From NCBI GenBank assembly GCA_947450255.1, contig CANFVA010000009.1, positions 1 through 39,741 on the forward strand: a stretch of 39,741 bases of DNA. The letters run 5' to 3'. The notes beneath the pieces were generated by a model. It was given only the letters and a program-made list of their open reading frames with translations, was not told where the DNA came from and searched no databases. Both the position numbers and the translations under genes were made by a program. Below, piece by piece: positions 2,644 to 17,192 of the stretch. This stretch comes from Comamonadaceae bacterium (GTDB lineage: Bacteria; Pseudomonadota; Gammaproteobacteria; Burkholderiales; Burkholderiaceae_C). Positions within the stretch are counted from its first letter, which is position 1, and the number at the start of each line of letters is the position of its first letter.

Positions 2644-3652
2644 GGCCTGCCTTTGTGGGCGTCGCTTGCGCCAACGCACCGCTGCCATGCGCACCGGGCT
2701 TACGCCCTAGCAATTGCCCCGGTATGCCCACCAAACCGCGCGGCAGCAAGGCCACGCTGGCGATGATGGTGAGCCCCAGGCCCAGATGCCAATGCTTGGC
2801 AAATTCGCCAAAAATCGCCTCGGAGCGGAAAAATTCTTGCAAGAGCGCAAACGCGAACGCGCCAATCAGGGCGCCGCGCAAATGGCCCAAGCCGCCCAAA
2901 ATAATGATGATCAGTACCTCGCCCGAGATATGCCAGCTCATCATTTCCGGGTTCACAAAACCGTCTTTTACGGCAAACAAAAACCCCGCCAATCCGGCGA
3001 TACCGCCTGACACCACAAAGGCCGCCAGCTTGTACGGGTAGGTAGAAAAACCGGTGGCACGCATGCGTTGCTCGTTGACGCGGATACCGGCCAGCGCATG
3101 GCCAAATTTGGACCGGCCCAGCATCGCCAGAAACACAAAAGTAGCCAACAAACAGGCCAGCGTAAAGCGGTACATCACCAGCGGCTTATCCAGGTCCAGC
3201 CAGTCGCCTAGCACGGGCTTCATCATCAGGTAAATGCCATCGGTGCCGCCACCCAAAGGCGTGTCGTGCACCACGTAAAAGGCCATTTGCGCAAAGGCCA
3301 AAGTCACCATAATGAAATACACGCCCTTGGTGCGCAGGGACAGCGCGCCCACCACCAGGGCATAGGCGGCGGCTAACAACACGCACAGGGGCAATAGGGT
3401 GGCGACCGAGGCCGGCCCATCGGAGGGCGACAAAAGTACAGTGGCATAAGCACCGATGCCAAAAAACGCTGCCTGCCCAAAACAGACCAGGCCGGTAGTA
3501 CCGACCAGCAATTCCAGGCTGAGCGCCAGCACCGCAAAGATCATGATCTTGGTGGCCAGATCCACCCCAAACTTGCCCGCCACATGCGGAAACATGGCCA
3601 GCGCCGCAAAGCAGGCCAGCACAAAAAGAAACTTAGGCAACTGTGCGCGCAT
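2630..3652 (-). CDS. livM: Branched-chain-type ABC transporter permease LivM
   Basis: A 340-residue polytopic membrane protein of the HAAT permease family. It has hydrophobic segments throughout and the family stretch LELLVGTTGLVCFGQAAFFGIGAY, discernible near residues 45-70. The start at ATG 3652 overlaps the livH stop by one base (TAATG), a normal coupling in liv operons; an upstream open extension to 3838 lies antisense-like across livH and is not used. The C-terminal tail after the last membrane segment is Gly/Ala-rich and probably cytoplasmic. It forms the translocation pore with LivH. Confidence 0.9.
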   Translation of the reverse strand: MRAQLPKFLFVLACFAALAMFPHVAGKFGVDLATKIMIFAVLALSLELLVGTTGLVCFGQAAFFGIGAYATVLLSPSDGPASVATLLPLCVLLAAAYALVVGALSLRTKGVYFIMVTLAFAQMAFYVVHDTPLGGGTDGIYLMMKPVLGDWLDLDKPLVMYRFTLACLLATFVFLAMLGRSKFGHALAGIRVNEQRMRATGFSTYPYKLAAFVVSGGIAGLAGFLFAVKDGFVNPEMMSWHISGEVLIIIILGGLGHLRGALIGAFAFALLQEFFRSEAIFGEFAKHWHLGLGLTIIASVALLPRGLVGIPGQLLGRKPGAHGSGALAQATPTKAGHAQP

Positions 3653-4533
3653 TAACCGGCCTTGAACAATCCGTCCGGCTTCCACAGCAGGATGACCGCC
3701 ATCAACACATAGACCAGCACGCCAGCGACTTGCGGGACCAGCACTTTGCCAAAGGTATCGACCAAGCCGATCAGCAAGGACGCCAACAAAGCTCCACGGA
3801 TCGAACCAATGCCGCCAATTACCACCACCACAAAACAAATAATCAGCACCAAGCTGCCCATGCCCGGATAGACCGACGACACCGGCGCGGCCACCATGCC
3901 CGCCAACACCGCAATCGCCACACCGGCGGCAAACACCACGCGGTACAGAAATTTGATATCAATGCCCAGCGACTGCACCATCTCGCGGTTGGTGCTGCCC
4001 GCGCGAATCATCATGCCCAGGCGGGTTTTGGCAAACACCAAGTACATACCCAGCGCCAAGAGCAAACATACGCCGGAGACAAACAGGCGATAGACCGGGT
4101 AAATCATCATGTCGCCCAGAGGAATGCTGCCAGACAAAAAATCAGGCGCTTGCACGCCATGGACATCGTCACCCACCAGCAGGCTGCGCAGTTCTTCAAA
4201 CACCAAAATCAGACCATAGGTCATCAGCACTTGCTGTAAGTGCTCACGCGTGTAAAGAAAGCTGTAAAACGCCCACTCCAGCACATAGCCCAGAGCCACG
4301 GCCAGGATCAAACCGAATAACAAAGTCGTGAAAAAACCGCCGCCTACTGTGGCCGCGACAAGCGGCGCCAAGGCAAACGCCATGTAGGCGCCTATCATGT
4401 AAAAGCTGCCATGGGCCAGATTGATCACACCCATGATGCCAAATATCAGCGTCAGACCCGAGGCCACCAAAAACAGCAGCAAGCCGTATTGCAGTGCGTT
4501 CAAGCACTGGATAAGAAAAGTGGTGAGGTCCAT
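3652..4533 (-). CDS. livH: Branched-chain-type ABC transporter permease LivH
   Basis: A 293-residue permease of the HAAT family starting MDLTTFLIQC. The classic LivH signature GLTLIFGIMGVINLAHGSF lies near residues 26-44, followed by alternating hydrophobic segments. The ATG at 4533 is preferred over an in-frame GTG at 4551, because the GTG falls inside an inverted repeat (4541-4584) in the livK-livH gap. It sits directly downstream of the binding protein gene, and its final base overlaps the livM start. Function as half of the membrane channel is well supported; substrate is not. Confidence 0.88.
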   Translation of the reverse strand: MDLTTFLIQCLNALQYGLLLFLVASGLTLIFGIMGVINLAHGSFYMIGAYMAFALAPLVAATVGGGFFTTLLFGLILAVALGYVLEWAFYSFLYTREHLQQVLMTYGLILVFEELRSLLVGDDVHGVQAPDFLSGSIPLGDMMIYPVYRLFVSGVCLLLALGMYLVFAKTRLGMMIRAGSTNREMVQSLGIDIKFLYRVVFAAGVAIAVLAGMVAAPVSSVYPGMGSLVLIICFVVVVIGGIGSIRGALLASLLIGLVDTFGKVLVPQVAGVLVYVLMAVILLWKPDGLFKAG

Positions 4534-4540
4534 AAAAATA

Positions 4541-4584
4541 CAGGGCCGCACCTAACGCCGCACAGCGTTAGGGCACAAGCCCTG
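4541..4584 (-). repeat. Nested inverted repeat (RNA hairpin) between livK and livH
   Basis: Perfect arms CCTAACGC (4551-4558) and GCGTTAGG (4565-4572) enclose a 6-nt loop. They are nested in a second perfect pair, CAGGGC (4541-4546) and GCCCTG (4579-4584). No T run follows, so it is not a canonical terminator. Such hairpins between a binding-protein gene and its permease genes commonly stabilise the upstream message and lower downstream expression. That role is inferred here. Confidence 0.6.
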
Positions 4585-4603
4585 TGTGCATTGTTTCAGT
4601 GGC

Positions 4604-5791
4604 TTACATCTTGCAACCGCGGCCGGGGTCGGCCAACTTGGCACTGGCCATACTCACGACCTTGTTTTCTTTTTCTTTGTCGCTGGCCTGGCGCAGGTAG
4701 AAGTCTTGCACCGGGTTGTGCGCGGCAGAAATCGTGAACGGGCCACGGGGGCTGTCGATGATGGCTTTGCGCAAAGCCGCAGAAATCTCCACGGCTTTGG
4801 TCGCGTCGCCTTTGGTCGCATTGAGGCCCACGGCCAGCATTTGCGCCGCGTCATAGCCTTGCACCGCATAAACGTCGGGCTGCAGGCGGTAGGTCTTGGC
4901 GTAGTTCAGACGGAAGGCTTTGTCACGCTTGGTGTTCAGGCTGTCGGCGTAGTGCAGAGCGGTGAAGATACCATCGGCCGACGCGCCCTGTGCATCCAAG
5001 ATGCCTTCGGTCAAAAAGCCCGATGCATACAAGGGAATGGAACCTTTAAGGCCCGCTGCCGCATAGTCCTTGACGAATTTGACCGCGCCGCCACCGGCGA
5101 AAAAGGTGAATACCGCATCAGGCTTAGTGGCCGCAATTTCCGTGAGCAAACCTTGGAACTCCACATTCGGGAACGGCAAACTCAGTTCTTTGACTACCGT
5201 GCCGCCGCCTTTCTCAAAGCTTTCCTTGAAGGCTTTGACCGACTCGTCACCTGCTGCATATTTCCACGTAATCGTGACCACCTTCTTGATGCCTTTTTTC
5301 GCCATCACTTCGCCCATGGCGTAGCCGGGTTGCCAGTTGGAGAACGAGCTGCGGAAAATATTGGGCGCGCACATAGCGCCGGTCACCGCGTCGGCACCGG
5401 CATTGGGCACGATGAGCAAAGTGCCGCTTTCTTTCGCGGCCTTGGCCATGGCCATGGCTACGCCCGAGTGCACGGTGCCAATAATTACATCGACTTGATC
5501 GCGCTTGATCAACTTGTTGACGTTGTCGGTGGCTTTAGAGGGCTCGGACTCATCGTCCACCTTGAAGTACTCCACTTCGCGGCCACCGACCTTACCTCCG
5601 AGCTCAGTGACATGCTGGCGAAATCCGTTTTCAATCGCGACGCCCAAGGCGGCAAATGTTCCGGTATACGGCAACATAAAACCGACCTTGAGTTTGCCCG
5701 GGGTTTGCGCAAGCGCAAGGGACGTGCTCAGTGCGGTCACCGCGACGGCGCTGCCAAGCCAACGAACGATTGGCTGAAGGGGTAGATACAT
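4604..5791 (-). CDS. livK: Periplasmic substrate-binding protein of the HAAT ABC importer (LivK-like)
   Basis: A 395-residue periplasmic-binding protein of the branched-chain-amino-acid (type I) family. Residues 1-28 form a signal peptide with a cleavage-like ALA-Q site. The mature start KLKVGFMLPYTGTFAALG is typical of this family, and the TVHSGVAMAMAKAAKESGTLLIVPNAGAD region fits the ligand-binding hinge. AAAAGGAG lies just upstream of the ATG at 5791. It is the first gene of the livKHMGF block and begins only 2 bp after the upstream hydrolase stop, so it belongs to the catabolic operon. Similar proteins near box genes are assigned to uptake of benzoate-like acids; the exact ligand here cannot be read from sequence. 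Confidence 0.88.
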   Translation of the reverse strand: MYLPLQPIVRWLGSAVAVTALSTSLALAQTPGKLKVGFMLPYTGTFAALGVAIENGFRQHVTELGGKVGGREVEYFKVDDESEPSKATDNVNKLIKRDQVDVIIGTVHSGVAMAMAKAAKESGTLLIVPNAGADAVTGAMCAPNIFRSSFSNWQPGYAMGEVMAKKGIKKVVTITWKYAAGDESVKAFKESFEKGGGTVVKELSLPFPNVEFQGLLTEIAATKPDAVFTFFAGGGAVKFVKDYAAAGLKGSIPLYASGFLTEGILDAQGASADGIFTALHYADSLNTKRDKAFRLNYAKTYRLQPDVYAVQGYDAAQMLAVGLNATKGDATKAVEISAALRKAIIDSPRGPFTISAAHNPVQDFYLRQASDKEKENKVVSMASAKLADPGRGCKM

Positions 5792-5793
5792 AG

Positions 5794-6738
5794 CTAGTCT
5801 CCTTTTAGGGATGTCAAAAATTCACAAACACCTGCGGTCAGGACCGCTTCCTGATCCCGGTGGGGCACATGCCCGCAATCGGCCAACTCAAGCAGTTGCG
5901 TGGGCCCGGCCAGAGGACGCAACGCATAAATTTGCTGCATTGTCCCGTATTCGTCGTCAATGCCTTGCACACCCAACACCGCACAGCGCAATGGCGCGAT
6001 TGTGTCAGCAATCGACCAGGCGGCAAATTCCGGCGCCAGCCAGGCTTCGCTCCAAGCCTCCAACACCGCGCCCGCGTCCGCATGGTAGCGCGCCAGTCGC
6101 GCCACCAAGCCCTGCTGCGCCTGGGGCGATTGCAAGGCCGCAATGGCGCTAAGGGTTTTCTGCTCGACAAACACATGCGGAGCCACGGCCACCACCGCCG
6201 CGGGCCAATCCGGGAATTGGGCGGCGAATAAAAGTGCGATCGAGGCGCCATCGCTGTGTCCGAACAAGATAAGCGGCGCGGCCGACTGCGCGCAGGTCGG
6301 GGAAGCCACCGGGTGCGGACCCGGCGCCACCACGCCCAGGGCGCGCAGCAAGGCGGGCAGCACCTGGTAGGCCTCGGTGTGCATGAAATCGCAGGCCCAG
6401 CGCTGGCGCGCATGCTGCGGCTGCGACTGGCCGTAGCCGGGCCTTGAATAGACCAGCCCCCGGCAACGGGCTGTTGCGCACAAGCGGGCCGGAAAGTCCT
6501 TCCACATCGCCAGCGAGCCCAAGCCCTCGTGCAGGAAGACGATCAGCGGCGCCGCCGCGGGGGCATCCCCGACCCACGCATATTCCAGGCCTACCGGCCC
6601 GCCGGGCAAGGGCAAATCAATCCACTGTGGCAAGGGGCTTAGGCCTGGTTGAGCGCTTGGGCGCGCAGGCGGAAACGCTGGATTTTGCCGGTCGCGGTTT
6701 TGGGCAACTCGGTGCAAAACTCGATCCAACGCGGGCAT
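5794..6738 (-). CDS. Alpha/beta hydrolase (serine hydrolase)
   Basis: The frame encodes up to 314 residues of alpha/beta-hydrolase fold. The oxyanion strand IVFLHEGLGSLAMW is at about 67-79. The nucleophile elbow GHSDG has Ser162. An acid-site GIDDEYG and a terminal CGHVPH histidine complete the triad. The start is uncertain: ATG 6738 gives a 100-bp overlap with the CoA-ligase gene and an N-terminus rich in Pro/Gln/Arg without family character, whereas a TTG at 6633 would begin just before the conserved region. Small hydrolases of this kind accompany box and related CoA-dependent aromatic clusters, where thioesterase or lactone/C-C hydrolase roles are proposed; the substrate is not deducible. 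Confidence 0.8.
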   Translation of the reverse strand: MPALDRVLHRVAQNRDRQNPAFPPARPSAQPGLSPLPQWIDLPLPGGPVGLEYAWVGDAPAAAPLIVFLHEGLGSLAMWKDFPARLCATARCRGLVYSRPGYGQSQPQHARQRWACDFMHTEAYQVLPALLRALGVVAPGPHPVASPTCAQSAAPLILFGHSDGASIALLFAAQFPDWPAAVVAVAPHVFVEQKTLSAIAALQSPQAQQGLVARLARYHADAGAVLEAWSEAWLAPEFAAWSIADTIAPLRCAVLGVQGIDDEYGTMQQIYALRPLAGPTQLLELADCGHVPHRDQEAVLTAGVCEFLTSLKGD

Positions 6739-8234
6739 TTGATGTGCGCCAGGCGTTCGCGCAAAAATTGGCGCATCCCCTCTTGCAACGGGGCATCACC
6801 GCTGACGCCCTGGCGCAGCACTACGTAGGCCTTAGGTTTGATCATGTCATGTTCATCGGGCGCGCCGATCACGGCGCATTCCAGCACACCAGGGTGCTCG
6901 GCCAGCACCGACTCGATCTCGGTAGGCGAGACCCAGACACCGCCCACGCGCAACATATCGTCCATCCGGCCCACGTAAAAGTAATTGCCCTGCGCATCCT
7001 GGTAGCACTTGTCGCCGGTAAGCACGCCGCCGTCCCACATAGTGGCCGCGGTGCGCTCTGGTTTGTTCCAATACTGCTGGGCGGCGCTCGGGCCTTTGAC
7101 AAATAAATTACCAATCTCCCCCACCGGCAAGGGCGCGCCGTGTTCGTCCAGGCAAATGCCCTCGTAACCGTCCACGATCTGTCCGCAACTGCCGGGTACC
7201 ACCGCGCCGGGCCGGTTGATCATGAACATATGCGTCAGTTCGGTGGTGCCTACGCCATCCAAAATTTCTTTGCCAGTGACCTCCAGCCATTTGCGGTACA
7301 GGGCCGGGGGCAGCAACTCACCACCGCTGACACAGATCCGCAAGCGGCTGCAGGCTTGCGCAATCTGCGCGCTCTGCATAGAGCGCATCAATTCCAAAAT
7401 ACCGGCGAACAGAGTCGGCACTGCCATCATGGCGGTGGGGCGCTGGGCCAGCATATGGTCTAGCACCGCCTTGGGCTTGATAGGATCGGCATCGACCACG
7501 ACGCTAGCACCGGCGCGCAAGGGGAAATACACCTGGTTGCCCAGGCCGTAGGCAAAAAACATTTTGGGCGGACACAGGATATGGTCGTTGGCGTTCAGGC
7601 CCATATTGCCAATGCCAAACAACTCGGTCGCCCAATAGATATGCGCGTGCGTGTGCACCACGCCTTTGGGGCTGCCGGTGCTGCCCGAGCTGTAAAGCCA
7701 AAAAGCCGCGTCCTGCGCATCGCAAACATAGGTGGCCAATTCCTGCGGCATGGGATCCACCGCCGCCTTGAAGTCGGTATAGGCCGGCACGGGCGCTCCC
7801 GTGGCAAACAGCAACTTCGGGAAATCTTCGGCTTGGCGTATGGTGTCGATACGCGCCAGCAAGTCCGGGCCCACAACCAGCGCCTTGGCGCCGCTGTCGC
7901 GCACGTAGTACGCATAGTCCGAGGCCAGCAAAAAGGTGTTGAGCGGCAAGGCCACCGCGCCGATTTTCATGGCGCCCAAAAACAGCGAAACAAAGTCCAG
8001 CCCGTCCGGCACGATAAACATCACCCGGTCCCCGGCTTGGATGCCGTGGGCGCGCAGCATGTGCCCGACCTGGCAGGCACGGCGGTACACATCGCCAAAG
8101 CTGTAGGTCACTTCCGGGCACACCAGATAAGGCCGCGCCGCCTCGATGGGCGACATGCGCAATTCCATCAGGTAATCCACCACATTGCCGGTCAGGCCAG
8201 GATGTTTATGGGCTTGTAGGTTCTTGTTAGGCAT
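6639..8234 (-). CDS. Benzoate-CoA-ligase-family aryl-CoA synthetase (second copy)
   Basis: A 531-residue adenylate-forming enzyme that activates a carboxylic acid with ATP and CoA. Visible are the P-loop SSGSTGSPK (182-190), the DGVGTTELTHMF region, the GEIGNLFVKGPSAAQQYWN segment, a YVGRMDDMLRVGG hinge and the catalytic Lys517 in PKTATGKIQRF. It starts at ATG 8234 behind a perfect GGAGG. It resembles the bclA product at 15466-17049 in length and motifs, but differs clearly in sequence, so it is a diverged paralogue and not a recent duplicate. Embedded in the TetR-linked operon, it probably supplies the CoA ester for the PaaA-like oxygenase. The acid may be a substituted benzoate or another cyclic acid; specificity is unknown. 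Confidence 0.87.
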   Translation of the reverse strand: MPNKNLQAHKHPGLTGNVVDYLMELRMSPIEAARPYLVCPEVTYSFGDVYRRACQVGHMLRAHGIQAGDRVMFIVPDGLDFVSLFLGAMKIGAVALPLNTFLLASDYAYYVRDSGAKALVVGPDLLARIDTIRQAEDFPKLLFATGAPVPAYTDFKAAVDPMPQELATYVCDAQDAAFWLYSSGSTGSPKGVVHTHAHIYWATELFGIGNMGLNANDHILCPPKMFFAYGLGNQVYFPLRAGASVVVDADPIKPKAVLDHMLAQRPTAMMAVPTLFAGILELMRSMQSAQIAQACSRLRICVSGGELLPPALYRKWLEVTGKEILDGVGTTELTHMFMINRPGAVVPGSCGQIVDGYEGICLDEHGAPLPVGEIGNLFVKGPSAAQQYWNKPERTAATMWDGGVLTGDKCYQDAQGNYFYVGRMDDMLRVGGVWVSPTEIESVLAEHPGVLECAVIGAPDEHDMIKPKAYVVLRQGVSGDAPLQEGMRQFLRERLAHIKCPRWIEFCTELPKTATGKIQRFRLRAQALNQA

Positions 8235-8273
8235 GGCGTCCTCCGTAGTCCTGAGTTAATTTGTTTAAGCGCG

Positions 8274-9218
8274 TCACGCAGGGGTGCTGGCAGGCGCGCC
8301 CAGCACCGATTGCCGTACAAATTGGCGCAGGGCCAGGGCGCAGGCTTGGGGCTGCTCTAGCTGCAAAAAGTGCCCTGTCCCGCCGATGCACGTGTAGCCA
8401 ATAGCGCACTGTTGGTGTACCTCCAAGGCAAAGCGGGCAGGCAAGCCACTGCCTTGCACCTGCGGGTCTGCGGCAAGCATGTGCACCGGGAATGGGCAGT
8501 CCTTCAACACTTGCAGGGCCTGCGGCCAGAGGTTCTCGCGATACACATGGGCCTCAAGAGCGGGTGCACAACGCAATTGCCACAGGCCGCCGGCCTGGGT
8601 CTGGCGCAAGGTGGCCAAGGCCATGTCCATACAGGCTTGTGCCTGCCACGCGCCAAACACCTCCACGCGCGCAAACCGGTCGGCCAGTTGCTGCGCGCTG
8701 TCAAAGGCCGGACGCCGACGCAAGGCGGCTTGGGCCAGTAATTGCACCTCAAGCCCATGCTCGTTTTCCATCGCATGGCCGGGTGGCGGACTCAGGGGTG
8801 GGTCCACCAGCAGCAAGCCGTCCCAACGTGGGCCATAGCGATGCAAATGGCGCAAACTGGTAACGGCACTGAGCGAGTGAAAAACCCCTACGAGCGGGCG
8901 TGTATCAAATTGTGCGGCCAAGGCGCTGGACAGGGCTTGCATGTCCGCCTCAAATTGCGTCCAGTGGTGGGCCGCCGGCGTGCCGGCAGGGCTGCGGCCA
9001 TGGCTGCGAAAATCAAATAACGAGACCTCAAAATCAGCCAGCAATTCACGCCAAAACACTTGGTAGCCATCCATCGCGAGGCCATTGCCATGGCTGAGCA
9101 CTAGTCGCACGCGCGCTGCCGGATTGGGGTACCAGCGCCAAGATAGCGCTGTGCCATCGTCGGCGTACACGGCCAACGCCTGGCCTTGCAGCCCAGCAGC
9201 TGGCGGCGCGGTGTTCAT
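8274..9218 (-). CDS. Alpha/beta hydrolase (second, different family member)
   Basis: A 314-residue alpha/beta-hydrolase-fold protein from ATG 9218, whose start overlaps the reductase stop (ATGA). It shows the oxyanion region LVLSHGNGLAMDGYQVFW, a FDFRSHGRS strand, the nucleophile region VGVFHSLSA and a C-terminal GGTGHFLQLEQP histidine. The frame stays open upstream to 9476, but that extension lies over the reductase gene and is unlike the family. It is only distantly similar to the hydrolase at 5794-6738, so the operon has two non-redundant hydrolases. Possible roles are thioester hydrolysis (salvage of stalled CoA intermediates) or ring-fission product hydrolysis. Neither is shown. Confidence 0.82.
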   Translation of the reverse strand: MNTAPPAAGLQGQALAVYADDGTALSWRWYPNPAARVRLVLSHGNGLAMDGYQVFWRELLADFEVSLFDFRSHGRSPAGTPAAHHWTQFEADMQALSSALAAQFDTRPLVGVFHSLSAVTSLRHLHRYGPRWDGLLLVDPPLSPPPGHAMENEHGLEVQLLAQAALRRRPAFDSAQQLADRFARVEVFGAWQAQACMDMALATLRQTQAGGLWQLRCAPALEAHVYRENLWPQALQVLKDCPFPVHMLAADPQVQGSGLPARFALEVHQQCAIGYTCIGGTGHFLQLEQPQACALALRQFVRQSVLGAPASTPA

Positions 9219-10234
9219 GGCGCGGCTCCGGTGGCGGCGGGCGCAAAACGGTCGTAATAAATATCGCTGGCATCCAGGCCCTTGACCAGCAAAGTTTTTT
9301 TGGCAGCTTCCACCATCGGCGGCGGACCACATAGGTACGCGGTAGCACCAAAGAAGTCGCCGCGCTGCGCCTTCAATGCATCGACGGCAGTGCCGCGCAA
9401 GCCTTGCCACGGCGAATCCACCGCTTCGTCGGACAACACCGGCACAAACTGCAATCGCCCATCCTGCGCCGCCCATTGTTGCAAGGGCCTTGCGGCGGCG
9501 ATTTCGGCTGCGTCGCGCGCCCCAAAGATCACCAGCAAATGACGCTGCTGCGGGCCGCGCAAAGCCGCTTGCACCAGCGCCAGCACCGGCCCGATGCCCG
9601 TACCACCGGCTACAAAAACGGCAAGTCCCGGGTGCTCAGCATCAAACCGGTAGGTGCCAAAGGGGCCGCGCAAGTTGACCACATCGCCAGGGGCCAGCGC
9701 ATGCCGCTTGAGCCGGTTACTGACCTGTCCGCCGGGATAGATGCGAACCATAAATTCGAGACGGTCGCTACCCGGTGCCACGCTGACCGAATAGGAGCGT
9801 GCATGCACCACATCGGGTAGATGCCATTCGAAATACTGCCCGGCCTCAAACTCCACCGGCTGCGGGCAACGCAGGCGCACTTGCACCGTACGCGGACCAT
9901 GCCAGACCAGCGATTCCATGACGGCATCTAACTGCCGAATAACCGGACCGTTGCGCGCACGCAAAGGCACTTTGAGCACCAGGTTGGAAGTGGCAAAGCA
10001 CATACAGGTCAGCACCATCCCCTGGGCGCGCATGGCCTCGGTAAACACTGCCGGGTCACTGCCGGGTAGCTGGCGCACCGTGCCGCTTTGCAATTGCGCC
10101 AGGCACTCGCCGCATTCGCCCGAGCGGCAGTTGTAGGGCAGCTCCAGGCCCTGGGCCAGACAAGCGTCGAGCACCGTCTCCTGCGAGGACATGGCTACCT
10201 CCTGGTCACCGCCGTCCAGTGTCAATGTGTACAT
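9215..10234 (-). CDS. [2Fe-2S]/FAD/NAD(P)H oxidoreductase, oxygenase electron-transfer component
   Basis: A 339-residue flavoprotein reductase. The N-terminal plant-type ferredoxin domain has cysteines near 36, 41, 44 and 77 (CRSGECGEC ... LTC). The FAD-binding motif RSYS is near 146-149, and the NAD(P)H-binding GGTGIGP (about 210-216) and CGPPPM (about 302-307) follow. This order (ferredoxin first) is that of BenC/MmoC-type reductases and is opposite to PaaE, where the ferredoxin domain is C-terminal. A TTG one codon upstream (10237) is possible. The gene follows the PaaA-like diiron protein by 52 bp and is its obvious electron donor. Confidence 0.9.
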   Translation of the reverse strand: MYTLTLDGGDQEVAMSSQETVLDACLAQGLELPYNCRSGECGECLAQLQSGTVRQLPGSDPAVFTEAMRAQGMVLTCMCFATSNLVLKVPLRARNGPVIRQLDAVMESLVWHGPRTVQVRLRCPQPVEFEAGQYFEWHLPDVVHARSYSVSVAPGSDRLEFMVRIYPGGQVSNRLKRHALAPGDVVNLRGPFGTYRFDAEHPGLAVFVAGGTGIGPVLALVQAALRGPQQRHLLVIFGARDAAEIAAARPLQQWAAQDGRLQFVPVLSDEAVDSPWQGLRGTAVDALKAQRGDFFGATAYLCGPPPMVEAAKKTLLVKGLDASDIYYDRFAPAATGAAP

Positions 10235-10286
10235 CAAGCGCCTCTAGCTAAATACTGCGAGCACAGAGACGACTTGGGGCGCACGC

Positions 10287-11045
10287 TCAATAGGCACGGT
10301 CGGTGTCCTGCTGGCCCTGGGGGTTCCAAATTTGGGTGTAGTCCTCGGGTAAGGCAAAGCCCCAGTCTTCGGTGACAAAAGCGCGCACCTGTTCCCAGTA
10401 GATAGCACGCATGTTTTCATTGGTGTCTTGTTTGATACCGAAGTGCCGGTAGCGCTCGTTTTTCTTGGACGCATCGGCACCAAAGGACTGCAAACCCACT
10501 GGCAACCATTTGTGCAAGGCGTGTTCCACCTGGGCGCGCCCTTGGTCAGTTTGCAGCAAAGCTTTGACCGCGTCCATACCCAAGCCGACATGGCCGTATT
10601 CCTCTTTGAGCGTGTCTTGCGCTGCCTGGCGAAAGGGCTCGTAGCGGCATTGCACAAAATGGCGAAACTGATGGGCTGCGGCGCGGTCCAAGATCGCCAA
10701 AAACACCGCCTGGTCGGCCCAGGACTCCATCGGCGTGTCAAAGGTGGACAAATGCCCTTTGCTGCGCGCGTATTCCTGCCAATCTAGGCCCAGCTCTTCC
10801 ATGAGTTTGCGATAGCGCAGGTGGTGGCCGTACTCCTCCATGACGGTGCGCGCCATACGCATCTTGAATTCAGCCGTAGGCGCACGCAATATGCTGGCCT
10901 CAAAAATATCGCCGCCATACAACTCGCTGACCACATGGATGTTGATCAGGTTGAGTAATAGGTCCTGGTACTCGGGGTCTTGATCCCAGAACTCGGCGGC
11001 GGTAACGACCGCTTGCGCGGGTGCGTCCATCAGGGCTTGCGACAT
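10287..11045 (-). CDS. PaaA/PaaC-family ferritin-like diiron oxygenase (putative acyl-CoA epoxidase subunit)
   Basis: A 252-residue protein of the phenylacetate-CoA oxygenase family. All ligands expected of a functional diiron four-helix bundle can be read: Glu41, Glu71-x-x-His74 (EEYGHH), Asp120 and Glu149-x-x-His152 (KEEYGH). Keeping both ExxH motifs makes it PaaA-like and not a structural PaaC-like subunit, although it is shorter than the roughly 310-residue PaaA. No PaaB, PaaC or PaaD homologue is present in the operon. AGGAAA lies upstream of the ATG at 11045. With the adjacent reductase it should oxygenate a CoA-bound ring, likely to an epoxide. The substrate is unknown. Confidence 0.85.
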   Translation of the reverse strand: MSQALMDAPAQAVVTAAEFWDQDPEYQDLLLNLINIHVVSELYGGDIFEASILRAPTAEFKMRMARTVMEEYGHHLRYRKLMEELGLDWQEYARSKGHLSTFDTPMESWADQAVFLAILDRAAAHQFRHFVQCRYEPFRQAAQDTLKEEYGHVGLGMDAVKALLQTDQGRAQVEHALHKWLPVGLQSFGADASKKNERYRHFGIKQDTNENMRAIYWEQVRAFVTEDWGFALPEDYTQIWNPQGQQDTDRAY

Positions 11046-11101
11046 AGATTGATTTCCTTTTCTATTGAATAACTACAGGTTGAAAGGCGAAGTACGCCGG
11101 C

Positions 11102-12601
11102 TTAGGCATAAAAGCCGCGCGCCGTCTCCGAGGCGTCGACGATCACGTTTTTGACCTCTGTGAAATCGAGCAAAGTTTCAAAGGCGTCTTCGCGGCCAAA
11201 GCCGCTGGCTTTGCTGCCGCCAAACGCCGCACCCGAGGGATAGAGGTTGTAGCAATTGACCCATACCCGTCCGGTGTGAATAGCGCGCGTCGCTTTGTGT
11301 GCGCGTGACAAACTGCCAGTCCACACGCCGGCGGCCAGGCCTTGCTCGACCGCATTGACTTGGGCGAACATGGCATCCTCGTCCTCCCAACTGTCAAAGG
11401 TGGCTACAGGTCCGAAAATTTCTTCACGGGCAATTCGCGCTTGCGGGTCCACACCCTCGAACAAAGTGGGCGCCATGAACAAGCCCTTGGGGTATTGGTC
11501 CACTGGTACCGGATGCCCGCCACACAGAATGCGCCCGCCTTCGCGCACGCCGATGGCGATGTACTCGCTGACCCGTTCGAAGTGCGCGCGCGAGGACAAA
11601 CTACCCATCCGGGTATTCGGGTCAAAAGGGTCGCCGATGTTGAGATTGGGTACCAAAGCCAGGATTTTTGCTTTCAGCGCATCGGCCACACTGGCATGGG
11701 CGTAAATGCGGCTGCCAGCGGTACACACCTGGCCCTGGTTGAGAAACGCGCCTAGCAAAATGCCTTGTGCCGCCCGGTCCAGGTCCGCATCGGGATAAAT
11801 GACCTGGGCGTTTTTTCCACCAAGCTCCAAGGTCAGGCGCTTGAGCGTCGCGCCCGCCGCGGCCATCACACGTTGACCGGTGCGCGTGGAGCCGGTGATC
11901 GAAATTTTGCGTATGCCAGGATGCGCGACCATGGCCGCACCCGTACCCGCGCCGCTTCCGGTGACGACGTTGACCACCCCCGGCGGAAAAATACGCCCAA
12001 ACAGCGCCGCAATTTCCAAGGTGGTCACTGGCGTGGTGTCGGCAGGCTTATAGACCACGGTATTGCCGCTGGCCAGGGCCGGGGCGATTTTTCCGACAAA
12101 CATATTGAGCGGAAAATTCCACGCACCAATGATGCCCACCACGCCCAAAGCTTGGCGCAGACCGTAGCTGGTAATTTCCGGCGTTACCGGCACCACCACG
12201 CCCTCGAAAACGCGGCACGCGCCTGCGTAATAGCGCAAGCGATCGGCAGCGGTAAATACATTAGCCCGGCTTTCGCGCAGAGGTTTACCCGTGTTCGCGG
12301 TCTCCAGCAATGCCAAGGGCTCCAAATGCACCACCAGCGCATCGGCGGCCGCTTCCAATAGAGCCTGGCGTTTTTTGGCGCTTAGATGGGCCCAGGCGGG
12401 CTGGGCCAGGGTGGCGGCCTGCACCGCGGCGTCCAGGTCCACATCGTCCGCCTCCGGGACCGTGGTGAGCAGCTTTTGCGTCAGCGGGCTGTAGCATTGC
12501 ATGCGCTCGCCGGCGTGCGCTTCATGCCAGTCGCCGTTGATGTAGAGCGGATAGGTCGCGCGCACGGTGCTACGCAGGGGACGCTTGGTAAAAGTTGCCA
12601 T
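11102..12601 (-). CDS. NAD(P)-dependent aldehyde dehydrogenase
   Basis: A 499-residue member of the classical aldehyde dehydrogenase superfamily. It has Asn162 in GAWNFP, the cofactor loop ITGSTRTGQ, general base Glu259 in LELGGKN and catalytic Cys293 in NQGQVCTAGSR. It ends with a typical FGGSKASGFGRE segment. ATG 12601 follows AGGA and lies 7 bp after the thiolase stop; an upstream open extension to 12652 is unlikely. It looks like the betaine-aldehyde/hydroxymuconic-semialdehyde type, not the PaaZ/BoxD type. In this operon it would oxidise the semialdehyde formed on ring opening, the step done by the aldehyde dehydrogenase domain of PaaZ. It might also cover the BoxD step missing from the neighbouring box cluster. 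Confidence 0.88.
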   Translation of the reverse strand: MATFTKRPLRSTVRATYPLYINGDWHEAHAGERMQCYSPLTQKLLTTVPEADDVDLDAAVQAATLAQPAWAHLSAKKRQALLEAAADALVVHLEPLALLETANTGKPLRESRANVFTAADRLRYYAGACRVFEGVVVPVTPEITSYGLRQALGVVGIIGAWNFPLNMFVGKIAPALASGNTVVYKPADTTPVTTLEIAALFGRIFPPGVVNVVTGSGAGTGAAMVAHPGIRKISITGSTRTGQRVMAAAGATLKRLTLELGGKNAQVIYPDADLDRAAQGILLGAFLNQGQVCTAGSRIYAHASVADALKAKILALVPNLNIGDPFDPNTRMGSLSSRAHFERVSEYIAIGVREGGRILCGGHPVPVDQYPKGLFMAPTLFEGVDPQARIAREEIFGPVATFDSWEDEDAMFAQVNAVEQGLAAGVWTGSLSRAHKATRAIHTGRVWVNCYNLYPSGAAFGGSKASGFGREDAFETLLDFTEVKNVIVDASETARGFYA

Positions 12602-12608
12602 AGTGTTC

Positions 12609-13787
12609 CTAGGTTCGTTCAAGAAGGTGGACGCAGGCGACCGCTGAATCATTTCCCAGCAGCCCGCCAGCCATTTGCGCTAGGCCCCAGCGCGCGCCGA
12701 CCACCTGGGAAGCGCCGGCGCGGTCGGTCAATTGCCGTGTCAGCTCGGCAATTTGGGCTACGCCGGTAGCACCCACCGGGTGGCCCCGGCAGGTCAGGCC
12801 CCCTGACACATTGATGGGCATGCGACCCCCCAAACGGGTGTGTCCGCTTTGGGTGCGCACAAAGGCCTCGCCCGGCGCACACAAACCAAGGTCTTCGATA
12901 TCGATGAACTCTTGGGGCGCCGTCGGATCATGCACTTCGGCCAGCGACACATCGCGCGGGTCCAGCCCCGCTGCCGCAAAGGCCAAGGCACCGCAGCGCG
13001 CAGTGGCATTGGGCGCCGTCGCAGCGCGCTGCGGCTGGCCCGAGACCACACACGAGGCCCGCACGGTCGGGCCGCGTATTCCATGGCGGCGCGCAAACGC
13101 GCCGCTGACCAGCACCACTGCCGCTGCGCCATCGGCGATGCCGCCGCACATGGCTCGGGTCAGGGGCGCTAGCACCATGCGGTCTTGCAAGATGGCGTCC
13201 ACATCCATCAGTGTGCGCACCGCCGCCTTGGGGTTGAGGCTGGCATGTTGCCGGTTTTTCGCTGCACAGGCTGCAAAATCACGGGGCGTGGCGCCGTAGC
13301 GCTGCATATAGGTGTTGGCACGCTCGGCATTGAGGTCCATGAACACCGAGCGGCCAGCGTCGGTGGGCTGGCGATCTGAGGCCGAGGCCAATGCCACCAT
13401 GGCGCGTGCGCGCTCAGCATGCGTCATTTTTTCTACGCCCAGCACCAGCACGCAGTGATACTGTCCGAAAGCAATTGCGCTCCAGGCCAGCGCCATGGCA
13501 TCGGCGCCACTGGAACAAGCGTTTTTGAGGTTGTGTACCGGGATACTGTGAATGCCAACGCCAGGCAGCAGCATCTGGCCCAGCATGGTTTCCTGGCCCT
13601 GCATCAAGCCGCCAAAAGCATTGCCCACATAGGCCGCTTGTAGCTGCGCGGCCTGCACACCGGCATCGCGTAAAGCCGCTTGCACCACGGGCAAGGCCAG
13701 GCTTTGCAAGCTGCTGTCGGGCCACAGGCCGAAGGTGCCGACCTCAGCGCCGGCCACCCTCACCTCGCAGGGGGGCGGCGTTGTCAT
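12609..13787 (-). CDS. Thiolase (SCP2-like acetyl-CoA acyltransferase)
   Basis: A 392-residue thiolase-fold protein. The acylated cysteine Cys91 lies in KNACSSGADAMAL and the catalytic His336 in LTCRGHPVGATG. The C-terminal second cysteine motif of biosynthetic/degradative thiolases (CxG) is replaced by a Gly-rich GGLLGND stretch, as in SCP2-type or lipid-transfer thiolases. The start overlaps the preceding hydratase gene (ATGA, 13784-13787). In the operon logic it would cleave a 3-oxoacyl-CoA at the end of the route. An aldolase-type reaction, as with some SCP2-like homologues paired with MaoC heterodimers, is possible, but the intact Cys favours thiolysis. Confidence 0.85.
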   Translation of the reverse strand: MTTPPPCEVRVAGAEVGTFGLWPDSSLQSLALPVVQAALRDAGVQAAQLQAAYVGNAFGGLMQGQETMLGQMLLPGVGIHSIPVHNLKNACSSGADAMALAWSAIAFGQYHCVLVLGVEKMTHAERARAMVALASASDRQPTDAGRSVFMDLNAERANTYMQRYGATPRDFAACAAKNRQHASLNPKAAVRTLMDVDAILQDRMVLAPLTRAMCGGIADGAAAVVLVSGAFARRHGIRGPTVRASCVVSGQPQRAATAPNATARCGALAFAAAGLDPRDVSLAEVHDPTAPQEFIDIEDLGLCAPGEAFVRTQSGHTRLGGRMPINVSGGLTCRGHPVGATGVAQIAELTRQLTDRAGASQVVGARWGLAQMAGGLLGNDSAVACVHLLERT

Positions 13788-14173
13788 GGGCTGAGTATGG
13801 CGACTTGCGCCTGCCCTTTGGCGGTGAGGGTGCCATCGGCCTTTTGAGCGACCAGTGCCAGTGCCACCTCTGCGTCAGTGACCCGCTCGACGGTGGCGCG
13901 CAACTCCAAATCTTCCAACGGAAACACTGGCGCAATGAAGGACAGGTCTAGACTGCGCACTTGGTCCGCCCCGCAATGTTCTGCCAACAAGCGCGCGAAA
14001 TGTGCCGTCGTCATCGGCCCTTGCTGTATCACCTGCGCAAAGCCGCAGCGCAAGGCAAATGCATCGTCGATGTGGATGGGATTAGGGTCTTGCGTGGCTT
14101 GCGAAAACAGGGCAATCGTCTCACGCGATGCGCCGGGCACGCGGACTTGGAAAAGCACTTCACCCAGCTTCAT
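13784..14173 (-). CDS. MaoC-family hot-dog hydratase (catalytic half)
   Basis: A 129-residue single hot-dog-fold MaoC protein. It carries the (R)-hydratase motif DPNPIHIDDAFA, with catalytic Asp29 and His34, followed by GFAQVIQQGPMTTAHFARLL. It overlaps the upstream MaoC-like gene by 4 bp (ATGA at 14170-14173) and the thiolase gene by 4 bp, so all three are translationally coupled. It is half the length of double-hot-dog hydratases and probably needs the upstream protein as partner. The reaction would be enoyl-CoA hydration or a PaaZ-like oxepin-CoA hydrolysis, since the PaaZ hydrolase domain is also MaoC-type. Confidence 0.85.
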   Translation of the reverse strand: MKLGEVLFQVRVPGASRETIALFSQATQDPNPIHIDDAFALRCGFAQVIQQGPMTTAHFARLLAEHCGADQVRSLDLSFIAPVFPLEDLELRATVERVTDAEVALALVAQKADGTLTAKGQAQVAILSP

Positions 14174-14580
14174 GGCGCACCCCGCTTAATAAGGCGCGTC
14201 ACCTCGCGCACCGCCAACGCACCGGACTGGGCGTGGTGGTAATCAAAGGTGGCATCGACAAACCATAAAGGCCCGGCTTTGCTGTTTTTTTCTAACACCC
14301 GGTCTATGCGTACGCGCACTTCCAGCACATCATCCCACTGCACTGGCGCAAACCACTCGTAGCGCTGGCCGCCGTGCAAGGCCTGGTGGCGCGGTATGTC
14401 CAGATCGCTAAACAAATCGACGCCCTGGCTTTCGCCGCGTAAGAATATCAGGTAGGTCAGCGCAGGCCGCGCCGGCAAAGCGGCCAGGCCCAAGGCTTGC
14501 GCATATTGCAAGCCCATGGTGCGGTCGGCCCGCACCTGATAGGGCGGGTACACCTTGCCTTCGTGGTCTTTGGATACCAA
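14170..14580 (-). CDS. MaoC N-terminal-domain-like hydratase subunit (partner half)
   Basis: A 136-residue protein resembling the N-terminal, non-catalytic half of double-hot-dog MaoC dehydratases. It has the typical opening KVYPPYQVRADRTMGLQYAQALG, a PALTYLIFLRG substrate-pocket strand and HGGQRYEWFAPVQWDD. The Asp/His hydratase motif is absent, in line with a structural or substrate-binding subunit. The start codon is TTG at 14580, decided by a well-placed GGAG 6 nt upstream. It is the first gene of the 14-gene operon and pairs with the next gene as a probable heterodimer, as in HadAB or ChsH1/ChsH2 systems. Confidence 0.8.
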   Translation of the reverse strand: MVSKDHEGKVYPPYQVRADRTMGLQYAQALGLAALPARPALTYLIFLRGESQGVDLFSDLDIPRHQALHGGQRYEWFAPVQWDDVLEVRVRIDRVLEKNSKAGPLWFVDATFDYHHAQSGALAVREVTRLIKRGAP

Positions 14581-14596
14581 TGGGTGCTCCTGTGCA

Positions 14597-14637
14597 TTAA
14601 TTTACGCTAGTGTAAATTAATATGCGCACCACCGCAA
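14597..14637 (-). promoter_or_regulatory. Predicted promoter and TetR-type palindromic operator of the 14-gene operon
   Basis: On the minus strand, TTGCGG (14637-14632), a 17-nt spacer and TACACT (14614-14609) form a reasonable sigma70 promoter. A 24-bp palindrome (14597-14620) covers the -10 box. Its half-sites are TTAATTTACGCT and AGTGTAAATTAA, with only one mismatched base pair between the arms. Size, symmetry and position fit a TetR-family operator, and a tetR gene begins its coding region nearby. Transcription would start near 14602, leaving about 20 nt before the TTG start. Confidence 0.65.
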
Positions 14638-14729
14638 GTGGGTTTTAGCGCTTGCGGGCGTTTTCTCTCTTCAATGCATGTAGTTGATCGCTACATTGGT
14701 AGGTGGATGCAGGGAAAATATTTTTTACA

Positions 14730-15431
14730 TTACGTAGATTTTTTACGGGGATGCGAGCGTCTCGCCACTACCGGTTGTGCCGCAAGCGCACTTGGCGCGC
14801 CAGCCCTCTGGTGCATGGGCTGCAAGCCCTGGCTCAGCATGGCGAAATAGGTATCAATGATGCTGTCAATGGGCGCGGACTTGCGTGGGTTGTACCAGCG
14901 CGCCAGCCAATTGCACATGCCCAAAATGCCAAAGGCAATCATCTTAGAGTCGCCCAGGTCAGAGATTTCACCTGCCACCTTGCCCTCGTCGATCAAGCGC
15001 GTCCACATTGACTCGTAGTCTTTCCAGACACGGCGCATCGCCACGTGCAACGCTTCGTTGCCGCCCATCACGCCATCGCGTAAAAAAATCGTCATTTCCA
15101 GGCAATGACGGTCAAAGCGCTGCAGGTGGTTGCGGATCGCCAAGCGCAGTTTTTCGTGGGCGGGAAGGGTTTGCGAGAGCACCGCCTGCATGCCATCGAT
15201 CAAGCCGCTGGTTTGCGGGCCGACGATGGCAATCAATATTTCGGTGCGGCTGCGAAAGTAGTAATACAAGGCCTCGCGCTTGATACCCACCGCCTGCGCC
15301 ACATCGTCCAGCGAGGTGTAGGCATAGCCTTTTCGGTCGAATAAGGCTGTGGCATGGCGCAATATCTCTTCGCGGCGCAAAGCGGATTTGCGCGGCTTGG
15401 CCGCTACAGTGGGTTTGTCAGGGCTAGGCAT
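14730..15431 (-). CDS. TetR/AcrR-family transcriptional regulator
   Basis: A 233-residue regulator. The N-terminal TetR DNA-binding domain is at about 18-65 (REEILRHATALFDRKGYAYTSLDDVAQAVG followed by REALYYYFRSRTEIL) and an all-helical ligand domain follows. The ATG at 15431 is preferred over a TTG at 15440. The tail after about residue 205 is Arg/Ala/Pro-rich and probably disordered. It lies 34 bp downstream of bclA on the same strand, so it is probably co-transcribed with benzoate-CoA ligase. It is followed by the palindrome at 14597-14620, its likely target. A CoA-ester ligand is plausible, as for PaaR-like TetR proteins, but not shown. Confidence 0.85.
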   Translation of the reverse strand: MPSPDKPTVAAKPRKSALRREEILRHATALFDRKGYAYTSLDDVAQAVGIKREALYYYFRSRTEILIAIVGPQTSGLIDGMQAVLSQTLPAHEKLRLAIRNHLQRFDRHCLEMTIFLRDGVMGGNEALHVAMRRVWKDYESMWTRLIDEGKVAGEISDLGDSKMIAFGILGMCNWLARWYNPRKSAPIDSIIDTYFAMLSQGLQPMHQRAGAPSALAAQPVVARRSHPRKKST

Positions 15432-15465
15432 TGCGGCCAATGCTAGCCGATGTCAAGCCAGCAGT

Positions 15466-17049
15466 TCAGGCCTGCCCTGCCGACAAAGCCCGCAGCTTGA
15501 AGCGTTGGATCTTCCCGGTCGCGGTTTTGGGCAACTCGGACACAAATTCGATCACGCGGGGGTATTTGAAAGGCGCCAGCCGGTCTTTCACGAATGCTTT
15601 GAGTTCGTCGGCGCTCACTTCCTGCCCGGGCTTGCGCACCACGTAGGCTTTGGTTTTGGTGAGTCCATCGGCGTCGAGCACGCCAATGACCGCTGCCTCA
15701 AGCACAGCAGCGTGCGCGATCAGCGTGGACTCCACCTCAAAGGGCGAGACATAGATGCCGCTGACCTTGAGCATGTCATCGCTGCGGCCGCTGTAGGTGT
15801 AACTTCCATCCTCGTTACGGGTGTATTTGTCGCCGCTGCGGGTCCAGGCGCCTTGGAAGGTTTCCAGGGTTTTTTCGCGGTTGCCCCAGTACAGCATGGC
15901 CGCGCTGGGGCCACGGATATACAGGTCGCCGGTCTCGCCGTCGGGCACGTCCTGGCCGGCGTCGTCGCGCAGCGCGATGTCATAGCCGGGCACCGGCCAG
16001 CCCGTCGTGCCGTAGCGCACCTGGCCGGGGCGGTTGGAGAGATAGATATGCAGCATTTCGGTCGAACCAATACCATCCACAATGTCCACACCGAAATGGG
16101 CCTTGAAGCGCTCGCCGATGTCAGCGGGCAAAGCCTCACCGGCCGAGGAGACCAAGCGCACGGCCAGGGTCTTGGCAGCCGGCAAAATCGGCGAAGCCAA
16201 CATGGATGCAAACAAGGTGGGGGCGCCAAAAAACGCCGTAGGTTTTTGCCCGCCCACGCCGCCTGCCAGGCGGTGAAACACCGCATCCGGCGTGGGCCGT
16301 TCGGCCATCAAGAGGGTGGTGGCACCCACACTCAGAGGAAAGCTCAGACCATTACCCAAGCCGTAGGCGAAAAACAATTTAGCAGCCGAGAAACACACGT
16401 CGCTAGCCTGTAAAGCCAGCACGTCCTGCCCGTAGAGCTTGGCAGTCCAATAAGGGTTGGCATGGCTGTGCACTGTAGCCTTGGGTCTGCCGGTGGAACC
16501 CGAGGAAAACAGCCAAAAACCCGGGTCGTGCGGGTGTGTGGGCGCACTTTGCGTCAGCGGCGGCTGTGCGGTCAGCCAGTCCTCCACGGCCACGCAGCCT
16601 GCGGGCAGCGGCCCCTGCGCACCGGAGACGACCACCTGGCGCAACTCGTGCGACCCTTGGGCCATAGCCTCTTGCAACACCTGCAGCAGGGCCTGCGACA
16701 CCACGGCGATTTGCGAGCGGCTTTTGGCCAGCATATAGGCGTAGTCCTCGGCCTTGAGCAAGGTGTTGGCCGCCACAGGCACGCTGCCCGCGTAGAGCGC
16801 GCCCAAAAACGCGCAAGGCCAATCGATGCCGTCGTGCATCAGAACAAACACGCGCTCTTCGCGGCGCACCCCGGCGGCCTGCAAAGCACCCGCCACCGCC
16901 TGTATCCGTTGCGCCAGCGCGCTGTAGCTCAGTGTGCCCTGGTCATCGACAAAGGCCAGGCGCGCGCCGTGATCCCGATTGCGGTCCAGTAGGTACTGCG
17001 CGAAATTAAACACCTCACCCTGCGGGTCCATTGCAGTGCGGTCTGTCAT
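15466..17049 (-). CDS. bclA: Benzoate-CoA ligase
   Basis: A 527-residue adenylate-forming ligase that converts benzoate, ATP and CoA to benzoyl-CoA, the entry step of the box pathway. Features are the P-loop SSGSTGRPK (182-190), DGIGSTEMLHIYLSNRPG, GETGDLYIRGPSAAMLYWGN, YSGRSDDMLKVSGIYVSP and catalytic Lys513 in PKTATGKIQRFKLR. The ATG at 17049 follows AGGAG. The gene diverges from boxR across a 172-bp gap containing TGCA boxes, which fits BoxR control. The assignment as the true benzoate ligase, as against the paralogue at 6639-8234, rests on its position beside boxRCBA and the strong family signature. Confidence 0.9.
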   Translation of the reverse strand: MTDRTAMDPQGEVFNFAQYLLDRNRDHGARLAFVDDQGTLSYSALAQRIQAVAGALQAAGVRREERVFVLMHDGIDWPCAFLGALYAGSVPVAANTLLKAEDYAYMLAKSRSQIAVVSQALLQVLQEAMAQGSHELRQVVVSGAQGPLPAGCVAVEDWLTAQPPLTQSAPTHPHDPGFWLFSSGSTGRPKATVHSHANPYWTAKLYGQDVLALQASDVCFSAAKLFFAYGLGNGLSFPLSVGATTLLMAERPTPDAVFHRLAGGVGGQKPTAFFGAPTLFASMLASPILPAAKTLAVRLVSSAGEALPADIGERFKAHFGVDIVDGIGSTEMLHIYLSNRPGQVRYGTTGWPVPGYDIALRDDAGQDVPDGETGDLYIRGPSAAMLYWGNREKTLETFQGAWTRSGDKYTRNEDGSYTYSGRSDDMLKVSGIYVSPFEVESTLIAHAAVLEAAVIGVLDADGLTKTKAYVVRKPGQEVSADELKAFVKDRLAPFKYPRVIEFVSELPKTATGKIQRFKLRALSAGQA

Positions 17050-17161
17050 AGCGGTTACTCCTCGTTGTCGCGCGGCGCCTAGCTATGGGCTAGGCCACCT
17101 TGCAGTGGTTAGCTGGAGCCGCCGGGCGCGCTGATCTTGCCGAAGTTTGATCCAGCCCGCT

Positions 17162-17192
17162 TGCAGCTTTTGAAAAAATGCATTATTGTGCG
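17162..17192. promoter_or_regulatory. Putative BoxR operator in the bclA-boxR divergent gap
   Basis: The 172-bp gap between the divergent bclA and boxR starts contains TGCA at 17162-17165 and 17179-17182, then TGCG at 17189-17192. The last two are 10 bp apart start to start (TGCATTATTGTGCG), one helical turn. The same arrangement occurs upstream of boxC. BoxR/BzdR-family regulators are known to bind TGCA-containing repeats, so this is a likely shared operator controlling bclA and boxR itself. Confidence 0.55.

Follow-up and report, generated by a model that had tools for sequence, protein, structure and literature searches.

The paa and box pathways are the best-characterised aerobic, coenzyme A (CoA)-dependent central pathways for aromatic compounds. 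In this study, we have analysed a 39,741-nucleotide stretch of DNA from a Comamonadaceae bacterium (hereafter the window; contig CANFVA010000009.1 of assembly GCA_947450255.1), in which nine minus-strand genes at 6639-15440, hereafter the module, lie among the genes of a box operon. Their order is tetR, maoC1, maoC2, thiolase, aldehyde dehydrogenase, PaaA-like oxygenase, reductase, hydrolase and aryl-CoA ligase, and the window is contig C9 of a source genome of 2.71 Mb in 210 contigs, 85.6% complete. We tentatively propose, as a possibility somewhat short of an even chance, that this is a mobile, TetR-controlled aerobic aryl-CoA catabolic module that was inserted into the box operon and would oxygenate a ring acid.

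The module has features in common with both pathways and also with less closely related systems. With paa it shares the PaaA fold and ligand pattern, a CoA-bound substrate, an aldehyde dehydrogenase, a MaoC-type domain and a thiolase; it differs in having no PaaB, PaaC, PaaD, PaaG, PaaK or PaaZ fusion, in its ferredoxin-first reductase and in the subfamilies of its MaoC and aldehyde dehydrogenase proteins, and 17 of 19 module genomes have no paaA above the profile cut-off. With box it shares the aerobic aryl-CoA logic, a ligase of the benzoate family, the physical insertion and the occurrence of boxB in all 21 module genomes, whereas BoxA, BoxB, BoxC and BoxD are absent from it, its oxygenase is closer to PaaA, and it brings its own TetR and an operator-like palindrome. 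The bile-acid Shy/Sal/Sad and cholesterol ChsH1-ChsH2/Ltp2 systems likewise combine a MaoC hydratase, an SCP2-like enzyme and an aldehyde dehydrogenase, but the module thiolase has Cys and HD rather than YD[C/H], there is no DUF35 protein, and an oxygenase and a benzoate-family ligase are added. The anaerobic 3-methylbenzoate (mbd) cluster, at least as outlined in PMC4424350, also associates a TetR regulator (MbdR) with a dedicated aryl-CoA ligase and a transporter and offers a precedent for an aryl-CoA inducer; its chemistry is anaerobic and its operator is ATAC-N10-GTAT, compared to TTTAC-N6-GTAAA in the module. Finally, among solved sequences the benzoylsuccinyl-CoA thiolase BbsAB gave the best match to the module thiolase (168.7 bits), but it leads an SCP2-thiolase by just 5 bits and its DUF35 (BbsA-like) partner is missing from the module. 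Among the matches listed in the open-licence literature, we found no characterised orthologue of this gene set and no paper on it.

The gene set and its conservation

The first-pass annotation of the window had described nine enzyme genes in a minus-strand train, followed by livKHMGF, as a self-contained operon rebuilding paa-like chemistry from separate parts. Our reading-frame list and profile searches bear out the train: all nine enzyme reading frames are present at 5794-14580, each matching its expected family, livKHMGF comes next, and no PaaB, PaaC, PaaD, PaaG or BoxC family appears among the ten reading frames scanned. The limits of the unit had to be redrawn, however, because the tetR gene (14730-15440, minus strand; Pfam TetR_N and TetR_C_24) belongs to it, and the hydrolase at 5794-6738 and the liv genes are part of the host box operon. 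Within these limits the module does possess its own regulator and its own aryl-CoA ligase, the latter of a separate clade.

The gene at 10287-11045 (minus strand) encodes a single-subunit diiron protein of family PF05138 (PaaA_PaaC, 2.9e-18), which matches the PaaA structure 3pvr in sequence (4e-13). Residues E40, E70, H73, D119, E148 and H151, whose ligand roles are assigned by alignment to the PaaA iron ligands, are invariant in 27 sequences. When its AlphaFold model (predicted local distance difference test, pLDDT, 90.8) was compared with solved structures by Foldseek, PaaA was nearest, with a root-mean-square deviation of 1.8-2.1 Å in seven of the top eight PaaA chains, some of which carry bound benzoyl-CoA or phenylacetyl-CoA; BoxB was clearly weaker. 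The sequence stays below the PaaA equivalog cut-off (77.2 against 280 bits). By predicted fold and ligand pattern, the protein is thus a PaaA-type catalytic diiron subunit, and it would act as an O2-dependent oxygenase of an aryl-CoA. The adjacent gene (9215-10237, minus strand) encodes an NAD(P)H reductase with Fer2, FAD and NAD domains, which resembles BenC and MmoC. Its domain order, with Fer2 first, and its score to the PaaE model (108.9 against a cut-off of 420.8 bits) both set it apart from PaaE-type reductases; BenC is the best-scoring model (188.4 bits), again below its cut-off of 430.

This oxygenase also has more distant relatives. Seventeen loci (L033-L049; 30-36% identity, mostly Rhodospirillaceae and Defluviicoccus by record title), together with L057 and L058, form a second set of single PaaA-like diiron proteins. 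In L057 (genome G059) the neighbours are reductase, cupin, FAH and GST genes, a neighbourhood that we read as of the gentisate type and that also holds PdxA-like, kinase-like and CoA-ligase-like genes, and in L040 they are a reductase, an FAH hydrolase, an amidohydrolase and a thiamine pyrophosphate (TPP) enzyme. Both neighbourhoods would suit a family of aryl-CoA oxygenases. The PaaA family profile gave nine matches in G071 and five in G062, none of them above the cut-off. The 198 plasmid records that matched the diiron protein were all below 60% identity, the best among the matches listed reaching 30.4%.

Four further core proteins, all on the minus strand, are encoded on the tetR side of the oxygenase gene. 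The product of maoC1 (14170-14580; PF13452, FAS1_DH_region) is an N-terminal-type hot-dog protein that we take as the non-catalytic half of a heterodimeric hydratase; the solved folds nearest to its AlphaFold model (pLDDT 87.9) are HadAB, itaconyl-CoA hydratase (PaIch) and ChsH1-ChsH2. The catalytic-type half is encoded by maoC2 (13784-14173; PF01575, MaoC), which keeps the motif DPNP[IV]H in all 16 aligned sequences and has the PhaJ-type hydratase 1iq6 as a solved relative. The SCP2/BbsB-type thiolase (12609-13787) shows a family match and invariant Cys (NACSSG), HD and GHP motifs, the NACSSG Cys and HDP being found in 14 sequences. The aldehyde dehydrogenase (11102-12601; family match 5.7e-158) has betaine-aldehyde and hydroxymuconic-semialdehyde dehydrogenases as its nearest solved relatives and is 26-30% identical to BoxD. 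No PaaZ chain occurred among the solved matches of maoC2 or of the aldehyde dehydrogenase at the limits used, and the MaoC and aldehyde dehydrogenase functions lie on separate genes. The description of the module as paa-like therefore fits the oxygenase, with its PaaA fold, and does not extend to the MaoC pair, given the folds nearest to maoC1, to the aldehyde dehydrogenase, to the BenC-like reductase or to the benzoate-family ligase. An accessory alpha/beta hydrolase, abh1 (8274-9218 from its likely start, minus strand), completes the set.

We scanned a genome collection with the diiron protein, a search that needs exact short peptides and may therefore miss more distant members. It returned 37 loci, 20 of which (L013-L032; Beta- and Alphaproteobacteria) are 58-95% identical and mostly carry the module. 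Both maoC genes are present in 15 of the 20; in the other five (L013, L020, L027, L029 and L032) the contig ends before that place, and the pair lies on other contigs for L013 (L064), L020 (L088) and L027 (L087, where the script called maoC1 but not maoC2). A thiolase of at least 57% identity and a full-length or near full-length aldehyde dehydrogenase each occur in 15 loci, the reductase in 18, a ligase of at least 52% identity in 13, relatives of TetR (49-86% identity) in 11, and a reading frame similar to abh1 was called in six. The seven core proteins show correlated pairwise identities (r 0.73-0.96, leaving out rows below 40% identity or 80% length, and L013), a matched divergence that is as expected for parts inherited together. 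Because most of the set recurs around an orthologous oxygenase in 20 loci, the module is not a chance association: its genes look intact and travel together. Its distribution is patchy, since among 61 genomes of the genus and order (its own included) 13 gave a match at 1e-10 and only three (G000, G018 and G020) hold a close orthologue.

Placement in the box operon and regulation

Module-free genomes of the same genus (L050, L051) carry boxR opposite a boxD-bclA-hydrolase-livK-livH series, a divergon that matches the BoxR regulon layout of boxD, bclA, lactonase and putative benzoate ABC transporter outlined in PMC6449761. In the module-free locus L063 (genome G035), the hydrolase and liv genes come immediately after bclA. 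The alignment of L063 with the window (2-3964 to 1748-5710, and 4845-9286 to 15466-19916) leaves about 8.7 kb, from tetR to the ligase, as extra sequence between bclA and the hydrolase. Because the module is rare, we infer that it was inserted into the box operon rather than lost elsewhere. The hydrolase at 5794-6738, an alpha/beta hydrolase that occupies the position of the box lactonase, and livKHMGF (1111-5791), the putative benzoate ABC transporter, both on the minus strand and outside the module, belong to the host box operon: L050, L051, L062 and L063 hold the hydrolase and liv genes without the module, and the window livK groups with box livK genes of the same genus. The idea that the module brings its own uptake is consequently withdrawn for the window. 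In L015 and L019 the module has a separate liv set, and the box operon keeps its own copy (L052, L053). Likewise, the module had been placed beside the box cluster but distinct from it; a distinct unit it is, yet one that sits within the box divergon.

On the other side of the module lie bclA (15466-17049, minus strand; 763.5 bits to the benzoate-CoA ligase model TIGR02262) and, at 17222-26045 on the plus strand, boxR, boxC, boxB and boxA, named by similarity and by eye, with 3-hydroxyacyl-CoA dehydrogenase and 3-oxoadipyl-CoA thiolase genes. In four other module genomes (those of L021, L030, L023 and L031), boxC-boxB pairs were seen with no boxA match in the fetched stretch (L055, L056, L060 and L069). 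Farther along the window, at 36763-39528, aldolase-like, BKACE-like (DUF849) and 3-hydroxyacyl-CoA-dehydrogenase-like genes stand in a row (by eye), which we presume to be reminiscent of carnitine breakdown.

A comparison with box and paa had been suggested for this gene set, and it showed boxB far above its background. The gene is present in all 18 genomes behind L015-L032 and in G000, G018 and G020; among other relatives it occurs in 17 of 58, and among other alphaproteobacteria, with two module genomes removed, in 23 of 140. Fisher tests gave p values of 7e-5 for nine betaproteobacteria and 4e-9 for 12 genomes counted as alphaproteobacteria, although related genomes are not independent and the class of L023 is not stated in its title. 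As a control for an aromatic lifestyle, boxB was found in seven of 16 alphaproteobacteria with paaA above the cut-off (p 0.003). A true paaA, by the same cut-off, occurs in two of 19 module genomes.

About 20 nt upstream of maoC1, the window contains the palindrome TTTAC-N6-GTAAA (14601-14616, strandless), which is also found at this place in all 13 loci that show the region and, in other genomes, before the ligase, aldehyde dehydrogenase-oxygenase and accessory operons. In the window and the 20 loci it was observed 33 times against 0.1 expected from a simple 200-base block shuffle, the loci being related and the 33 sites not independent events. It is the probable operator of the module TetR, judging from its position. 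Control of the box genes by this TetR was considered and ruled out, as no exact palindrome occurs in the fetched box loci (L050-L056, L059-L063 and L065-L070) other than L064, a G020 contig with a module end and box genes, whose single palindrome precedes maoC1. BoxR-type TGCA-N6-TGCA sites lie around boxR, at 17179-17192 (one mismatch), and at the start of boxC, at 18196-18209; this pattern is not enriched across the window (33 against 44 expected).

Possible substrate, mechanism and alternatives

The ligase (6639-8234, minus strand) belongs to the benzoate-CoA ligase family (478.9 bits to TIGR02262, cut-off 375.25) and is nearest to anthranilate- and benzoate-CoA ligases. It does not group with the BclA of box, as judged by tree and alignment: module ligases (16 rows) and BclA (15 rows) form separate clades with support of 100/100, in a midpoint-rooted tree for which the program gave a long-branch warning. 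In the region of the acyl pocket, all 16 module ligases carry PPKM, SGGE and GTTExTHMF, compared to SAGEALP and GSTEMLHI in 15/15 and SAAKL in 14/15 BclA sequences; FFAYG, or a motif close to it, is retained. A BclA-like match (46-87% identity) is present besides in 18 of 19 module genomes, on the boxB contig in eight of the 18; G074 has none and G073 a partial one. Because its clade is separate from BclA, the module ligase probably does not use benzoate, as had been predicted. Since aryl-CoA ligases group by substrate, at least as outlined in PMC8388817, the module probably activates some other acid, most likely a ring acid. In L021, a UbiD-family decarboxylase-like gene lies upstream of the module (4298-5686; 233.1 bits, just below the cut-off of 244.85).

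The substrate and reaction steps that we infer are the following. The ligase would join CoA to a ring acid that resembles benzoate without being benzoate, and the ring of this thioester would be oxygenated by the PaaA-like diiron enzyme, with the BenC-like reductase supplying it. The MaoC heterodimer could then add water, opening or hydrating the oxygenated product, after which the aldehyde dehydrogenase would oxidise the resulting aldehyde, the Cys-thiolase would cleave a beta-ketoacyl-CoA, and the fragments would join the lower part of box/beta-ketoadipyl-CoA metabolism. TetR would probably be released from its operator by the aryl-CoA or by a thioester formed later. A bolder version, which we regard as improbable, is that the module represents a third way, next to paa and box, of cleaving aryl-CoA rings aerobically, via the C2-C3 epoxide of an ortho-substituted benzoyl-CoA made by the PaaA-like enzyme. 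Its oxepin form would be hydrolysed by the MaoC heterodimer as a beta-alkoxy-enoyl-CoA, and the thiolase, in place of the formate release by BoxC, would remove the ortho carbon and its substituent as an acyl-CoA (acetyl-CoA in the case of 2-methylbenzoate). This would leave dehydroadipyl-CoA semialdehyde, as in the box pathway, for the module aldehyde dehydrogenase to oxidise.

Several observations weigh against ring oxygenation by an inserted, TetR-controlled module. The module encodes neither PaaG nor BoxC nor any other enzyme dedicated to ring opening, and its MaoC pair and aldehyde dehydrogenase are not of the PaaZ or BoxD types. On the 4.8-kb contig of L029 the oxygenase is not accompanied by the rest of the module, and L016, L017 and L025 have no thiolase and aldehyde dehydrogenase between maoC2 and the oxygenase. 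Short C-terminal remnants of the dehydrogenase just before the oxygenase gene in L016 (9645-9903) and L018 (9734-9919) suggest deletion or relocation, and L018, a locus that also contains dnaA, dnaN and gyrB, has a full aldehyde dehydrogenase and another oxygenase gene further on, at about 16362-18656. The palindrome totals are weak: 52 against 32 for a reversed-pattern control in the 16 of 21 module genomes searched whole (G000, 4 vs 2; G018, 3 vs 4; G020, 4 vs 4; G061 and G070, 1 vs 1 each), and G075 (L029) has no site. The evidence of the palindrome is its position before module genes and not its number, as G061, G062 and G070 have one palindrome each, located at the module, and the four sites of G064 and the five of G069 all lie within it. 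In five alphaproteobacterial or unplaced loci (L021, L022, L023, L027 and L091), the palindrome lies before an acyl-CoA synthetase of the PRK12582 type (in L021 scoring 793.5 bits, with the cut-off at 777; by similarity in the other four), with crotonase, FabG-like short-chain dehydrogenase/reductase (SDR) or second-thiolase genes nearby in some, which suits side-chain shortening. Finally, a paa background should serve as well as a box one if nothing but a lower pathway were shared; that the module goes with boxB in particular (21/21, compared to 2/19 for paaA), and not with lower pathways in general, speaks for a product attacked by BoxB itself.

These last points feed the main alternative, unlikely in our view though far from negligible, in which an aryl acid (e.g., a phenylpropenoid) has its side chain shortened by the module, supplying benzoyl-CoA or benzoate to BoxB. 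The MaoC pair would hydrate an aryl-enoyl-CoA, the thiolase would release an aryl-CoA, and the aldehyde dehydrogenase would handle an aryl aldehyde. Besides the boxB tie and the alphaproteobacterial extension with its acyl-CoA synthetase, this is in line with the closest solved thiolase, which releases benzoyl-CoA, for what its narrow lead is worth. The ligase is nevertheless of the benzoate family, with FFAYG or close to it retained, and a conserved O2-dependent oxygenase would have no obvious job. A retro-aldol step of the Shy/Sal/Ltp2 kind was rejected: Sal/Ltp2 aldolases have a YD[C/H] motif, and Sal has Gly in place of Cys (as outlined in PMC12329534), whereas the module enzyme, with its Cys and HD and no DUF35 partner, is by its residues a Cys-thiolase compatible with thiolysis and not a Sal/Ltp2-like aldolase. 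The simplest reason for an aldehyde dehydrogenase in a side-chain scheme is thereby gone, leaving an aldehyde from ring opening as its natural substrate.

Quite unlikely, too, is an alternative route for benzoyl-CoA itself (e.g., at other O2 levels), in which the module replaces BoxC/BoxD chemistry and its aldehyde dehydrogenase stands in for BoxD. In its favour, the module sits inside the box operon, and the window has no boxD where this gene normally stands (17050-17221, between boxR and bclA); nor was boxD found at E 1e-60 in G000, G018 and G020 (86, 86 and 99% complete). Replacement of BoxD looked strong within the genus (boxD in 0/3 module genomes), and weakened because two genomes without the module, G006 and G035, also have no boxD at the box locus, because boxD is absent from 20 of 23 module-free, box-positive alphaproteobacteria, and because six of 21 module genomes hold both. 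The gene is missing as well from the box locus of the module genome G061. Where the box locus lacks boxD, another aldehyde dehydrogenase must serve the pathway; a search at E 1e-130 for that of the module in 40 genomes with box but without the module, a set with no positive control, found none. The distinct ligase clade and regulator also suggest another substrate. Equally improbable is a non-aromatic cyclic or branched acid, hydroxylated by the diiron protein at a saturated or allylic carbon and processed in a beta-oxidation-like manner by MaoC, thiolase and aldehyde dehydrogenase: the HadAB/ChsH/itaconyl-CoA-hydratase-like fold of maoC1 suits a branched or bulky enoyl-CoA, and L016 and, by similarity, L017 have acyl-CoA dehydrogenases after the reductase, but the core has none, the nearest ligases use anthranilate and benzoate, and one sister oxygenase sits with gentisate-type genes.

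In conclusion, oxygenation of a ring acid other than benzoate by an inserted, TetR-controlled module is the reading that we tentatively retain. The module offers a directly testable set, consisting of a ligase, an oxygenase with its reductase and a single operator-like site, and two of its loci come from named strains (Lacisediminimonas profundi CHu64-6-4 and Neopusillimonas maritima 17-4A) rather than metagenome-assembled genomes. If this reading is true, a further route of ring attack and a new aryl-CoA ligase specificity would come from a conserved, self-regulated and patchily distributed module whose PaaA-like oxygenase has a single subunit.

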